In this document: positions 26,827 to 31,532 of the stretch, one piece after another
Layout: every line of letters begins with the position of its first letter
How positions within the stretch are numbered: the stretch's first letter is position 1
From: Flavobacteriales bacterium
GTDB taxonomy: Bacteria; Bacteroidota; Bacteroidia; Flavobacteriales; TMED113
DNA length: 57,260 bases
Reading direction: 5' to 3'
Assembly: GCA_002701365.1 (NCBI GenBank)
Contig: NZUK01000034.1
Coordinates: 1 to 57,260 of the forward strand
Notes under the pieces: generated by a model
What the model was told of the DNA's origin: nothing
The model's input: only the letters and a program-made list of their open reading frames with translations
The model's database searches: none
Program-made: the position numbers and the translations under genes

Positions 26827-29535
26827 ATGATTACTAAAGGTGATAAAAAGCTATTTTTAATAGATGCATATGCTTTAATTTATAGAGCTTATTTTGCTTT
26901 TTCAAAAAATCCTAGAATAACATCAAAAGGTTTTGACACTTCTGCAATTTATGGTTTTACCAACATGTTAATGGATCTCATAAACACAGAAAAACCCGCC
27001 TACTTAGGCGTCGTTTTTGATACTCCTAAAAAAACACATCGGCATGTTGAGTATATAGATTACAAAGCAAATAGAGATGCCATGCCTGAAGGCATTGCAA
27101 CAGCCATCCCTTATATCAAAAAAATTTTACAATCATTTAATATACCTGCTTTGTCACTAGATGGTTTTGAAGCAGATGATGTTATTGGAACACTTGCAAA
27201 ACAAGCAGCAGGACAGGAATTTCAAACTTACATGATGACTCCAGATAAAGATTTTGCACAATTAGTTACAGATTCAACATTTATGTATAAACCTGGTAGT
27301 CGTGGAAACCCAAGTGAAGTGTGGGATGTTAATAGGGTCTGCGAAAAATTTGATATTAATAATGTTAGCCAGGTTATTGATTTTTTAGGTATGGTTGGAG
27401 ATTCGGTTGACAATATACCTGGTATTGTTGGGGTTGGTCCTAAGACATCATCCAAGTTACTTAAGCAGTATAATTCAATTGAGCAAATATATAATTCAAT
27501 TAATGAATTAGATGGCAAACTCAAGGAGAAACTTATGAGCTCAAAAGACAATGCCTTTTTATCAAAAAGTCTCGCTACAATAATAACTAATGCTCCCATT
27601 AATCTCGATCCGGTATCATTAAAAAGACAAGCACCTAATTTAAATGCATTGAAGGATATTTGTGATGAATTAGAATTTTCTAGAATCTACAATAGATTAA
27701 CTAAAAATTATACTGATACCAAACAGCACACTAAATCTATCGTGTCTGGAGCACAATTAGATATGTTTAATATAGATAAGGAATTAGATGTTGTAATAAA
27801 TAAAGGAAAACATATTCGTAATATAGAAGAGTTAAAAGATGTAATTAGTAGCTTAATAATCTCAAAAATTGTTGGTTTTTACATTTTGTATAATGATGAG
27901 AAGCCAATTGGTTTATCTGTAACAAGCTCTACCAATTATTTGGCATATATGTTATTTGACAAGGATTTGCAACTTAAACAAGTCTTAACAGAAATGTTGC
28001 CAATTTTTAATTCAAATAAAATCGAAAAAGTTTTTTGGGATTATAAAAGTTTTTTAAAAAGTTTAGCAGAATTTAATATTAATTGTGAGGCACCAATTTT
28101 TGACGCTACTATTGCAGATTATTTAATTAACCCAGATTCTAATAGAAGTCATTTTGGCATGGCACAAAAATATGATATTCAATTAATTAATTTGGGTTTA
28201 TTAGATGTAAAAATAGAGGAACAAGCAACGGCTTATTTAATTGAAATGGCAATTTTTATTTTAAATATTAAGCCTGTTTTATTTAATCTTTTAGATAAAA
28301 ACACATTATTAAAATTATTTTTTGATGTGGAGTTACCTTTAGTTCCTGTGTTAATTCAGATGGAACAAAATGGCATTTTACTTGATACTAAATCGTTGTC
28401 AGATTATTCTCAAACACTTAAAACACAATTAGGTGATTTAGAAAAAAATATTTTTAAGAAAGCAGATTGTGAATTTAATATATCTTCTCCAAAGCAATTA
28501 GGTGAAATTTTATTTGTAAATATGAAACTTGTTGAAAAGCCTAAAAAAACTAAATCTGGTCAATTTTCAACCAGTGAATCGGAATTAGCAAAATTAAAAG
28601 GAAAACATTCTATTATTGATGACATTCTATTATTTAGAACATATCAAAAGCTTTTAAGTACATATGTTAATGCACTCCCTTTACTAATTGATGCTAAAGA
28701 TAAAAAGTTACACACTACGTTTAATCAAACAGTTACTAATACTGGCAGGTTAAGTTCTAAAAATCCTAATTTGCAAAACATACCAATACGAAAATCTTCA
28801 GGAAAAGATGTTAGAAAAACTTTTATTGCCTCAAATTCTCAGCATATATTAATGGCTGCAGATTACTCACAAATTGAATTACGATTAATTGCACACTTAA
28901 GTGATGAATCGAATTTGATTCAGGCTTTTTTAAATGATCAAGACATACACTCTATTACAGCTTCAAAGGTTTTTAATGTGAATTTAGAGGATGTAACAAG
29001 TGAAATGCGATCTAATGCGAAAACTGTAAATTTTGGAATTATTTATGGCGTTTCCGCTTTTGGATTAAGCGAACAAAGTACTCTTAGTAGAAAGGAGTCA
29101 GCTAATTTAATTTCGGAGTATTTTATCAAATATCCTAAATTAAAAATATATATAGATGATCAAATTAATTTTGCTAAAAATAACGGTTTTGTTCAAAGTA
29201 TACTAGGCAGAAAAAGATATTTACGAAATATTAATTCAAGAAATTCATTTATAAGAAGCCATGATGAGAGAAATGCTGTAAACATGCCGATACAAGGCTC
29301 CGCTGCAGATATTATTAAGATAGCTATGATTAGTATTCATCAAGAATTTGCAAGCCGAAAAATGAAATCCAAAATGGTTTTACAGGTACATGATGAGTTA
29401 GTGTTTGATGTGTTTCTGCCTGAAAAAGAAGAAGTCATGAATATCGTTAAAAGAAAAATGGAATCAGCTTATGATGCTAAAGTTCCATTAAAAGTAGATA
29501 TAGGCTTTGGAAACAATTGGCTATCAGCCCATTAA
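26827..29535 (+). CDS. polA: DNA polymerase I, probably without proofreading
   Basis: This 902-residue enzyme has an N-terminal 5' nuclease domain (DGFEADDVIGTLA, GDSVDNIPGIVGVGPKT) and a family A polymerase. Motif A is MAADYSQIELRLIAHLS (about 677), motif B RSNAKTVNFGIIYGVSAFG and motif C LQVHDELVFDV. It fills gaps and removes RNA primers. The middle 3'-5' exonuclease-like domain looks inactive. Where FDTET is expected it reads GFYILYNDE (about 350), the exo II region WDYKSFLKSL lacks the Asp, and the exo III YxxxD site is replaced by AYLIEMA. A downstream minus-strand gene ends 3 bp away. Confidence 0.95.
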   Translation: MITKGDKKLFLIDAYALIYRAYFAFSKNPRITSKGFDTSAIYGFTNMLMDLINTEKPAYLGVVFDTPKKTHRHVEYIDYKANRDAMPEGIATAIPYIKKILQSFNIPALSLDGFEADDVIGTLAKQAAGQEFQTYMMTPDKDFAQLVTDSTFMYKPGSRGNPSEVWDVNRVCEKFDINNVSQVIDFLGMVGDSVDNIPGIVGVGPKTSSKLLKQYNSIEQIYNSINELDGKLKEKLMSSKDNAFLSKSLATIITNAPINLDPVSLKRQAPNLNALKDICDELEFSRIYNRLTKNYTDTKQHTKSIVSGAQLDMFNIDKELDVVINKGKHIRNIEELKDVISSLIISKIVGFYILYNDEKPIGLSVTSSTNYLAYMLFDKDLQLKQVLTEMLPIFNSNKIEKVFWDYKSFLKSLAEFNINCEAPIFDATIADYLINPDSNRSHFGMAQKYDIQLINLGLLDVKIEEQATAYLIEMAIFILNIKPVLFNLLDKNTLLKLFFDVELPLVPVLIQMEQNGILLDTKSLSDYSQTLKTQLGDLEKNIFKKADCEFNISSPKQLGEILFVNMKLVEKPKKTKSGQFSTSESELAKLKGKHSIIDDILLFRTYQKLLSTYVNALPLLIDAKDKKLHTTFNQTVTNTGRLSSKNPNLQNIPIRKSSGKDVRKTFIASNSQHILMAADYSQIELRLIAHLSDESNLIQAFLNDQDIHSITASKVFNVNLEDVTSEMRSNAKTVNFGIIYGVSAFGLSEQSTLSRKESANLISEYFIKYPKLKIYIDDQINFAKNNGFVQSILGRKRYLRNINSRNSFIRSHDERNAVNMPIQGSAADIIKIAMISIHQEFASRKMKSKMVLQVHDELVFDVFLPEKEEVMNIVKRKMESAYDAKVPLKVDIGFGNNWLSAH

Positions 29536-29538
29536 TGT

Positions 29539-29769
29539 TCACTTACTAGATTTATTAATATATGAGTATAATATTAATAATGCCGCAACTCCAATAAAAT
29601 TTGCTTGACCAAATTGACCTATTGCATTAGAAATATTGCCGACAACATTCCATCCTAATAATGGCGAACCAGTTATTAACTGTATAACTACACCTAAACA
29701 TAAAAATGGGACAGCAAGCTCAATACCTTGAGTAATTATTCCTTTTATTTTTTCAAGTATTTTTTTCAT
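29539..29769 (-). CDS. tiny two-helix membrane protein A, unknown function
   Basis: This 76-residue protein has a basic N-terminus (MKKILEKIKG), then a hydrophobic helix (about 17-34, VPFLCLGVVIQLI). A small-residue linker follows (VVGNISNAIGQFGQANF) and a second helix (about 58-71). It aligns over most of its length with the neighbouring 69-residue protein through a shared pattern LG+++Q ... VxGxIxxAxGxxGxxFxG+xxLL. The two appear to be duplicates. A strong terminator lies between them, so this gene needs its own promoter or read-through; I see no good -33/-7 pair. It ends 3 bp from the polA stop. No family is recognised. Confidence 0.6.
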   Translation of the reverse strand: MKKILEKIKGIITQGIELAVPFLCLGVVIQLITGSPLLGWNVVGNISNAIGQFGQANFIGVAALLILYSYINKSSK

Positions 29770-29821
29770 TTTTTGGGGTTCTAAATTTGTTTAAACTTAA
29801 TACATTTAATTCAAATAAAAA

Positions 29822-29847
29822 AAAAGCCCACTCAAAAGTGGGCTTTT
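29822..29847 (-). terminator. intrinsic terminator (works on minus, plausibly both strands)
   Basis: A perfect 11 bp inverted repeat, AAAAGCCCACT / AGTGGGCTTTT, has a 4-base loop (CAAA). On the minus strand it is followed by nine U residues (A-run 29817-29825 on the plus strand) and lies 18 bp after the stop of the 69-residue membrane protein. On the plus strand it could stop polA read-through. It is the only textbook intrinsic terminator I see in the window. Confidence 0.9.
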
Positions 29848-29864
29848 CTTATTTAGTAAGATGA

Positions 29865-30074
29865 TTACTTAAGAAATGCTAAAACAACAAGCAAAGTAAC
29901 TAATCCAGTAAAGTCATTGCCTATTCTACCAACAGCATCTCCGATAGCTCCAATTACATCAATAAATCCACCAACACCTGCTATCTGAAGAAGTATTCCT
30001 AAACCAATTAAAGACATTACTAACGCAGTAAGACCTTTAATAAAATCACCTAAATTTTTAAAAGCTGTATTCAT
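29865..30074 (-). CDS. tiny two-helix membrane protein B, unknown function
   Basis: This 69-residue protein reads MNTAFKNLGDFIKGLTALVM, a first helix (about 15-32) containing LIGLGILLQIAGVGG. A glycine-rich amphipathic linker (DVIGAIGDAVGRIGNDF) and a second helix (about 54-68) ending AFLK follow. There is no signal peptide and no Cys. It is related to the 76-residue protein downstream. Its own transcription unit is unusually well marked for this window: a -33/-7 promoter candidate 29 bp upstream and a strong terminator 18 bp downstream. That suggests a short, probably abundant mRNA. The size and shape recall holins, small pore formers or membrane-stress peptides, but nothing proves this. Confidence 0.62.
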   Translation of the reverse strand: MNTAFKNLGDFIKGLTALVMSLIGLGILLQIAGVGGFIDVIGAIGDAVGRIGNDFTGLVTLLVVLAFLK

Positions 30075-30102
30075 AACATAAATTTTTTAGTTATTACAAG
30101 CC

Positions 30103-30135
30103 CAAATTTAAGTATCCTTAATGTGGATTTCCAAA
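30103..30135 (-). promoter_or_regulatory. Bacteroidota-type promoter for the 69-residue membrane protein
   Basis: On the minus strand TTTG (30132-30135) is followed after 21 bp by TAAATTTG (30103-30110). This agrees with the -33 TTTG and -7 TAnnTTTG consensus known for primary sigma factors of this phylum. Transcription would start near 30096, leaving a leader of about 22 bases before the ATG at 30074. This is the best promoter match in the window. Confidence 0.5.
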
Positions 30136-30371: not shown

Positions 30372-31532
30372 TTAGCCTTTTTTTGTGATTTTATTAAATG
30401 CTTGTTTTAAATCATCAATCAAATCGTCACTATTTTCAATACCCACACTTATTCTAATTAAAGAATTAGATAAATTATGTTTTTCTCTTTCTTTTTTGGG
30501 AATACTGGCATGTGTCATAGATGCAGGGTGTGAAATTAGCGATTCTACACCACCTAATGATTCTGCAAGTTTAAATAACGAAGTATTTGAAATAATTGTG
30601 ACAGCGTCTTCAAAAGAATCATTTTTTAGTGTAAAAGACATCATGCCACCAAAGTCACGCATTTGTTTTTTTGCAATGATATGGTTTTTATGAGTTTCTC
30701 TTCCCGGCCAATATATTTTATCAATCATATTTAAATTTGATAAAAAGGAGTTAATTTTAGCGGCATTTTCGCAATGTTTTTTTATTCTTAAGTCAAGTGT
30801 TTTAATTCCCCTAAGTGCTAAAAAACTATCCATTGGTCCAGGTACTGCTCCGCAACTTTTAGTAATTAGGAAAAGTTTTTCATATATGCTAGGATTATTT
30901 GTAATTAATGCGCCCATGATTAAGTCAGAGTGTCCAGCCAGGTATTTAGTAACAGAATGTAAAACTATATCAGCTCCCAAATCTAATGGATTTTGTAGAG
31001 CTGGGCTAGCAAAAGTATTATCTACAACAACTATTATATCCTCTCGATGTTGTACCATCTCTTTTATTTTCTGAATATCTATAATTTCTAATAAAGGATT
31101 TGATGGTGTCTCAATCCAAATCAATTTAGTTTGATCAGTTAAACTATTTGTTAGATTATCAGCGTTGGTTAAATCTATATATTTGAATTTTAAATCAAAA
31201 TTGGAAAATACTTGAGAAAACATTCGATATGTTCCGCCATAAATATCTTTATTACAAATAATAGCATCATTGGGCTTTAATAACTTAATAATAGCATCAG
31301 CTGCTCCCATTCCACTTGAGTAACAAATTCCAAATTTACCATTTTCTAAAACAGCAATGCTATTTTCTAGCGCAGACCTTGTTGGGTTTTTTGTTCGAGA
31401 GTACTCATAGCCCATATTATCACCGGGTTTTTTTTGTACATATGTTGAAGTTTGATATATTGGTGTTATAATTGCTCCTGTTGAGGGATCTGTATCTAGT
31501 CCTGAATGAATAACTTTTGTTCCAAATTTCAT
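30372..31532 (-). CDS. cystathionine gamma-synthase / gamma-lyase family PLP enzyme
   Basis: This 386-residue trans-sulfuration enzyme has the PLP-binding Lys in HSVTKYLAGHSDLIMGA (about 195-211). The N-terminal YEYSRTKNPTRSALE and the active-site Tyr and Arg block are present, as is the C-terminal SLGGVESLISHPA. The family either joins cysteine to an activated homoserine (MetB) or cleaves cystathionine (lyase); sequence alone does not separate them, and no other methionine gene is adjacent. A -7-like TAAATTTG (minus strand, 31550-31557) lies 18 bp upstream of the start, but I see no -33 box. Confidence 0.88.
   Translation of the reverse strand: MKFGTKVIHSGLDTDPSTGAIITPIYQTSTYVQKKPGDNMGYEYSRTKNPTRSALENSIAVLENGKFGICYSSGMGAADAIIKLLKPNDAIICNKDIYGGTYRMFSQVFSNFDLKFKYIDLTNADNLTNSLTDQTKLIWIETPSNPLLEIIDIQKIKEMVQHREDIIVVVDNTFASPALQNPLDLGADIVLHSVTKYLAGHSDLIMGALITNNPSIYEKLFLITKSCGAVPGPMDSFLALRGIKTLDLRIKKHCENAAKINSFLSNLNMIDKIYWPGRETHKNHIIAKKQMRDFGGMMSFTLKNDSFEDAVTIISNTSLFKLAESLGGVESLISHPASMTHASIPKKEREKHNLSNSLIRISVGIENSDDLIDDLKQAFNKITKKG

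Follow-up and report, generated by a model that had tools for sequence, protein, structure and literature searches.

Gene Organization and Paralogy

What two adjacent genes for small membrane proteins, located beside polA in the chromosome of a Flavobacteriales bacterium, do for the cell was the question raised by this locus. The genes, named here A and B, lie in a window of 57,260 nucleotides, the window being the whole stretch of DNA that was analyzed. The coding features concerned are the following:

29865..30074, minus strand: gene A, 69 aa, ATG start at 30074 (supported by open reading frame, homologues, dN/dS and AF2 model)
29539..29769, minus strand: gene B, 76 aa, ATG start at 29769, a paralogue of A (supported by open reading frame, homologues, dN/dS and AF2 model)
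26827..29535, plus strand: polA, DNA polymerase I by sequence; convergent with B and a fixed neighbor, outside the A-B unit
30372..31532, minus strand: PLP-dependent enzyme of Cys/Met metabolism, of the cystathionine gamma-synthase (CGS) type by sequence, upstream of A

Both open reading frames called in the initial annotation were present. Gene A is located upstream and gene B downstream on a common strand, with 95 nt between them, and synteny analysis revealed that other genes take the place of the CGS-type gene in some lineages. The two proteins have the same architecture, an amphipathic N-terminus followed by membrane helix 1, a short helix and membrane helix 2. Local alignment of A with B (BLASTP) showed 27% identity over nearly the whole length (E 2e-5), while the profiles of the A and B families aligned end to end with a probability of 98.8% (hhalign, E 1.3e-16). 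Both comparisons back the old duplication proposed in the initial annotation and, judged from these alignments, A and B are true paralogues.

Promoter, Leader, and Terminator

The following regulatory features were identified around the two genes:

30103..30135, minus strand: promoter of A, Bacteroidetes-type, TTTG-N21-TAAATTTG, an exact match to the consensus
30075..30102, minus strand: 5' leader of A, ~23 nt if transcription begins 4-5 nt after the -7 element
29819..29850, minus strand: intrinsic terminator or attenuator between A and B, AAGAAAAGCCCACTTTTGAGTGGGCTTTTTTT, with a 14-pair stem and a T-run after it
29770..29818, minus strand: stretch from the terminator to the start of B, containing TAAGTTTA, one base off TAnnTTTG

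The promoter of A is composed of a -33 element TTTG (30132-30135), a 21-nt spacer and a -7 element TAAATTTG (30103-30110), as in the Bacteroidetes consensus TTTG/TAnnTTTG (PMC6847099). The 57 kb window contains three exact matches to this consensus, whereas six would be expected by chance, and the match is therefore not significant alone; it becomes significant because the -7 element has the same position in all of the 54 loci compared (those having both genes, window included), beginning 35-39 nt before the start codon of A. The chance of finding TAnnTTTG anywhere within the 100 nt searched is ~10%, and the 54 loci are related by descent and hence are not independent trials. By sigma-70 (E. 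coli) criteria, no notable promoter was detected before A. The early claim that this gene has the best promoter match thus does not hold for sigma-70; what A has is an exact Bacteroidetes-type promoter with a conserved -7 element. Upstream sequences also revealed that a CTTGTAATAACTAAAAAA-like stretch in the leader of A recurs among the closest relatives.

The terminator proposed to separate the two copies was confirmed between A and B. Of 31 terminator-like sites listed for the window, it has the longest stem, which makes its description as the only textbook terminator there a fair one. The A-B gap contains a hairpin of four or more GC pairs followed by a T-rich tail in 54/54 loci, in the form of 48 different stem-loops, and shuffled A-B gaps yielded no such hairpin-plus-T-tail element. 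The varied stems with pairing kept argue more strongly for a terminator than does the count of 54/54. The Rfam matches were all below gathering scores and located on the terminator.

In the stretch between the terminator and B, the two closest relatives (L036 and L037) contain an exact TAAGTTTG, and B may have a weak promoter of its own in the window's genus. TAnnTTTG was also present in the A-B gap of 20 of the 54 loci, in many of them 24-33 nt before B and not in all at promoter distance, and thus a promoter specific to B is probable in some lineages, not in all. In some lineages, the start of B lies 5-20 nt past the hairpin, which leaves no room for a promoter, and there B probably depends on read-through.

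Selection and Expression

Comparison of the window with its two closest relatives gave dN/dS values of 0.016-0.071 for A and 0.05-0.16 for B. By this measure purifying selection is strong on both genes and very strong on A, which remained 94-99% identical where polA was 61-65% identical. The two genes are very short and hydrophobic and belong to no annotated family, as might be expected of non-functional or artefactual open reading frames; that explanation is, however, practically negligible in view of the strong purifying selection and of promoter and terminator motifs kept over four families.

At unchanged residues, the same codon was kept in 76-79% of cases in A, as compared to 46-62% in B and eight neighboring genes for the same genome pairs. 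Little synonymous change commonly marks highly expressed genes, and the unusually conserved synonymous sites of A thus suggest that A is highly expressed; a selected RNA element could also lie behind them. Ranked against segments of the window for ribosomal-like codon use, A fell at the 99th percentile (P 0.01) and B at the 94th percentile, in a weak test taking the genome's ribosomal operon as reference where codon bias is weak. These signs suggest high expression of A and lower expression of B, by read-through or from a separate promoter. The codon conservation, the promoter and the terminator are all in line with the initial proposal that the copies are differently expressed and that A is carried by a short, probably abundant mRNA, and it is highly probable that the genes form a paralogous, differentially expressed unit. 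In addition, the distances of A and B were correlated after removal of the polA distance (partial r 0.49, Mantel P < 0.001, liberal for related sequences), which favors a joint function.

Distribution and Genomic Context

In the window's family (f1), A was present in 11 of 12 genomes. Across the order, the A query matched 67/296 genomes and the B profile 69/396, almost all in four families (f1, f8, f11, and f15), in which the pair was found in 11/12 (f1), 8/10 (f8), 42 of at least 51 (f11), and 7/12 (f15) genomes, these denominators being counted on the listed results of an rpsL search and many of the genomes without a match being incomplete. The genomes with the pair are roughly 0.8-2.0 Mb in size. 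The pair occurred in no other family of the Flavobacteriales sample, and in a phylum-wide sample of 395 genomes the window's own genome was the sole match. The only match outside the four families was a single gene on one contig of genome G669 (f7). The encoded protein (G669:C9, L134, on a 20-kb contig of an f7 Flavobacteriales MAG) is identical to a protein of a viral contig, and the contig is most likely a mis-binned phage.

Among named genomes, 62 loci were recovered, nearly all from entries titled as Flavobacteriales, Cryomorphaceae or Bacteroidetes MAGs or single cells, and A was followed by B in tandem at 61 of them, the exception (L096) being at a contig end. Homologues restricted to very close strains would have spoken against the initial annotation; the family is instead conserved well beyond these, in four families, and the expectation of a pair conserved in tandem in other Flavobacteriales was borne out. 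As for individual loci, part of A is masked in L059, and the frames of B, polA and the next gene are broken in L051 (Cryomorphaceae MAG CM1_5m.P23), where assembly indels are likelier than real loss. L093, titled Chryseobacterium gleum, has the synteny and the A/B pair of the marine loci, and its label is probably wrong.

Genomic context analyses revealed that in f1, f8, and f11 the pair adjoins polA and is convergent with it, while the opposite side carries a CGS-type or SDR gene followed by YicC and gmk (names by sequence). In f15-like loci polA is still near, but on the other side. The pair thus keeps the polA neighborhood across families, which indicates a core locus and not a mobile one. 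A KtrA/TrkA-like gene (by sequence, ~226 aa) was observed between the CGS-type gene and A in L044, L045, L047, and L050, an arrangement confined to two genera of f1.

A core, slowly evolving pair that is nearly always present in its families would also suit the main rival to a channel complex, namely that A and B are accessory subunits, small supernumerary or assembly parts of, for instance, a respiratory enzyme, ATP synthase, a transporter or another large membrane complex, and themselves non-conducting. However, no membrane complex was co-localized with the pair in any lineage, the neighbors being those named above, and the pair is missing from related families of the order that must share the core respiratory machinery. 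A link to proteorhodopsin is contradicted by the distribution: most f1 genomes have the pair, mostly without a rhodopsin match, and many f7 genomes have a rhodopsin without the pair, so that proteorhodopsin was rejected as a partner. The accessory role is considered unlikely, though it carries some weight.

Protein Structure and Searches for Known Families

Hydropathy analysis showed two membrane stretches in each protein, in agreement with their first description as two-helix membrane proteins. Positively charged termini and a negatively charged loop characterize A, B, and the phage family C described below, and both ends are therefore predicted to be cytoplasmic (N-in/C-in). The AF2 monomer models of A and B consist of a helix at residues 2-31/33, a loop, a short helix at 40/42-52/53 and a second helix from residue 55, with moderate confidence (pLDDT 80.5 for B and 68.7 for A). 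Close to the outer end of helix 1, one position is occupied by Q in 55/55 B sequences and by E in 42/42 C sequences (one of them outside the search pattern and read as E by eye), whereas in A it is E in 24, Q in 14 (8 by eye), D in 3 and T in 2, that is, E, Q or D in 41/43. In phage protein D, also described below, the residue is Q. Over 50 sequences of B, W40, N45, F58, and G60 were invariant.

No significant family was found for A or B in Pfam, NCBIfam or PHROGs, and weak family matches of their relatives were below curated cut-offs or of partial coverage. Searches of PDB sequences against the A, B, and joint-family profiles gave no match at E<=10. Foldseek with the B model retrieved nothing from PDB, and viral models gave insignificant matches alone. 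PADLOC produced no match for A, B, C, D, the phage B homologue or the phage DHH-like protein. The statement of the initial annotation that no family is recognized is thus supported by all five resources (Pfam, NCBIfam, PHROGs, PADLOC, and PDB), and no open-access paper on the A-B pair was found. DUF2976 (PF11190) was rejected as an assignment, as its one match among 16 A members (E 0.02) was below the gathering cut-off and A of the window gave none. The phage family phrog_13597 (membrane protein; moron, auxiliary metabolic gene and host takeover), likewise a small phage membrane protein, weakly matched 6 of 16 B proteins (best E 0.0015), its match to B of the window covering residues 23-44 alone (E 0.073), which is not a family assignment. 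Small two-helix membrane proteins are known as a kind, and within the libraries searched A and B appear to represent an undescribed protein family with an undescribed, conserved regulatory unit.

MscL is an oligomeric channel protein with an N-terminal amphipathic helix and two membrane helices. A and B share this N-terminal amphipathic helix and the two membrane helices with MscL-type channels but are about half the length of MscL, and neither Pfam, PDB sequences nor Foldseek (B model) connected them.

Relatives in Phages

Searches of viral contigs did not find A; the phage forms are B-like, C, and D. The phage B homologue was detected in five IMG/VR contigs, as two variants ~94% identical to each other, and is 46% identical to B over 76 aa. 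In the phylogenetic tree it groups with B (support 89/92, which is not decisive). It begins before the end of the preceding gene, for which a weak DHH match was recorded (E 1e-4, short of the Pfam cut-off); the gene order is lysozyme, DHH-like gene, B homologue. The DHH-like protein (500 aa; L101:3499-5231), whose gene has this start-stop overlap with the B homologue, has an N-terminus (MKSVLITKKQFNNISESL) resembling that of the neighboring lysozyme (MRIIIKESQFKRLLEQ), possibly a shared targeting sequence. A tblastn match of the phage B protein in the crAss-like phage cr272_1 (E 0.02) was antisense inside another gene and was discarded as chance.

Family C, of 77-78 aa, has relatives in 523 viral contigs, and its profile aligned with those of A (98.4%, E 6.9e-15) and B (97.3%, E 2.4e-11; hhalign). 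Its neighbors encode a 5-aminolevulinate synthase-like PLP enzyme, DUF454, a copper-binding protein of the plastocyanin/azurin family, AdoMet decarboxylase, ClpP, and a baseplate-hub-like protein. A large phage group in IMG/VR (L140-L219 and L220-L298) carries family C near host-like genes which, by eye, include hemC, hemE, hemF, phasin, DUF1127, and alkane monooxygenase lookalikes. Aquatic phages with 5-aminolevulinate synthase genes have been described (PMC11480375), and many family-C phages share such a gene with them; the main text of that paper makes no mention of "membrane protein," DUF454 or holin, and the small gene appears undescribed there. Protein D, of 74 aa, is encoded between the tail tube and baseplate hub of phage L307, a position at which no gene is annotated in Flavobacterium phage immuto or Microcystis phage Mel-JY01. 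It combines an A-like start with the B-like motifs LCLGIVVQ and FGWDIIGN and is 27-45% identical to family members over its length. Taken together, the full-length profile similarity and the Gln/Glu (Asp) of helix 1 suggest that A, B, phage C, and phage D belong to one family. The gene occurs in at least three different phage positions, which fits an accessory gene acquired more than once.

The placement of phage C among host-like metabolic genes would also be expected if A and B were accessory subunits, in which case the phage relative would keep the complex working during infection; the presence of heme genes suggests that respiration is being maintained, and PMC11480375 argues this for phages of this type.

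A second alternative explanation is that the pair is a constitutive cellular relative of superinfection-exclusion proteins, blocking DNA entry like T4 Imm. Exclusion factors are typically small two-helix membrane proteins, and the single relatives are accessory genes in several phage types, among them D at a site that is gene-free in two related phages. T4 Imm is likewise a small inner-membrane protein (~80 aa) encoded by a phage accessory gene, whereas A and B are a fixed cellular pair whose profiles showed no similarity to it (hhalign probability 0.4% and 0.2%), and no PADLOC model fits. The single, near-universal core site and the dN/dS values down to 0.016 are furthermore unlike patchy, fast arms-race genes. 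The phage-defense role left open in the initial annotation therefore finds little room at this nearly universal, slowly evolving locus. Exclusion is possible for the phage copies and a poor fit for the chromosomal pair, and as an account of the pair it is improbable.

Among these three alternatives, a holin role fits worst. According to it, A and B would form a holin-like two-helix pore for phage lysis or programmed cell lysis, and they do resemble class II holins (e.g., the lambdoid S21 type) in length (below ~100 aa), two membrane helices, predicted N-in/C-in topology and a basic C-terminal tail; the phage B copy, moreover, lies two genes downstream of a phage lysozyme. Unlike class II holins, A and B form a paralogue pair at a chromosomal core locus with conserved regulation from a housekeeping-type promoter, and no endolysin or lysis cassette is adjacent to them on the chromosomes or to the phage C genes, which lie in metabolic or baseplate neighborhoods. 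No PHROGs holin family matched. The holin-like role that had been suggested is accordingly set aside for the chromosomal pair, for which we consider it very improbable.

Proposed Function

The preferred reading, one that we infer for the pair, is that of pore formation. A strong promoter would drive A in one short A-B transcription unit, and the terminator right after A would pass part of the transcription to B, some lineages adding a second promoter, such that A would be made in excess of B. This excess, like the topology, is predicted from sequence. Both would be inner-membrane proteins whose N and C termini face the cytoplasm, with the short helix linking the two membrane helices on the outer side and a buried Gln/Glu close to the outer end of helix 1. 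Assembled into an oligomer that is rich in A and also contains B, they would then constitute a small channel or conductance-like complex, serving the membrane energetics or the ion/osmotic balance of marine Flavobacteriales, and the single-gene relatives found in several phages would serve to adjust the host membrane during infection.

The whole chain, ending in an A-rich, B-containing oligomeric, channel-like complex of the inner membrane, is given a probability of roughly 35%. That A and B share a complex is slightly favored, while the conductance step, suggested by the small size, the arrangement in two helices and the Gln/Glu kept at the end of helix 1, is tentative. Since no solved or predicted structure proved similar, it is the architecture that carries the case for a channel. 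The -7 element that B has of its own in some lineages implies that the A:B ratio need not be locked, and the phages carry one gene only, so that a phage protein has to function with no partner encoded by its own genome.

Significance

Few parts of bacterial genomes are as poorly annotated as small membrane proteins. The present pair belongs to the conserved core of small-genome ocean bacteria, has a clean regulatory layout and has relatives in more than 500 viral contigs, and knowing what it does would account for a gene retained by several types of phage. The promoter-gene-terminator-gene unit is, in addition, a natural test case for terminator-set protein ratios in Bacteroidetes. More speculatively, and with the odds against it, the genes may represent a core micro-membrane pair of several marine Flavobacteriales families whose single-gene relatives, auxiliary genes of several unrelated phage types, would act on the membrane of the infected cell and not on its metabolism, that is, a channel or regulator of membrane energetics shared by ocean bacteria and their viruses.
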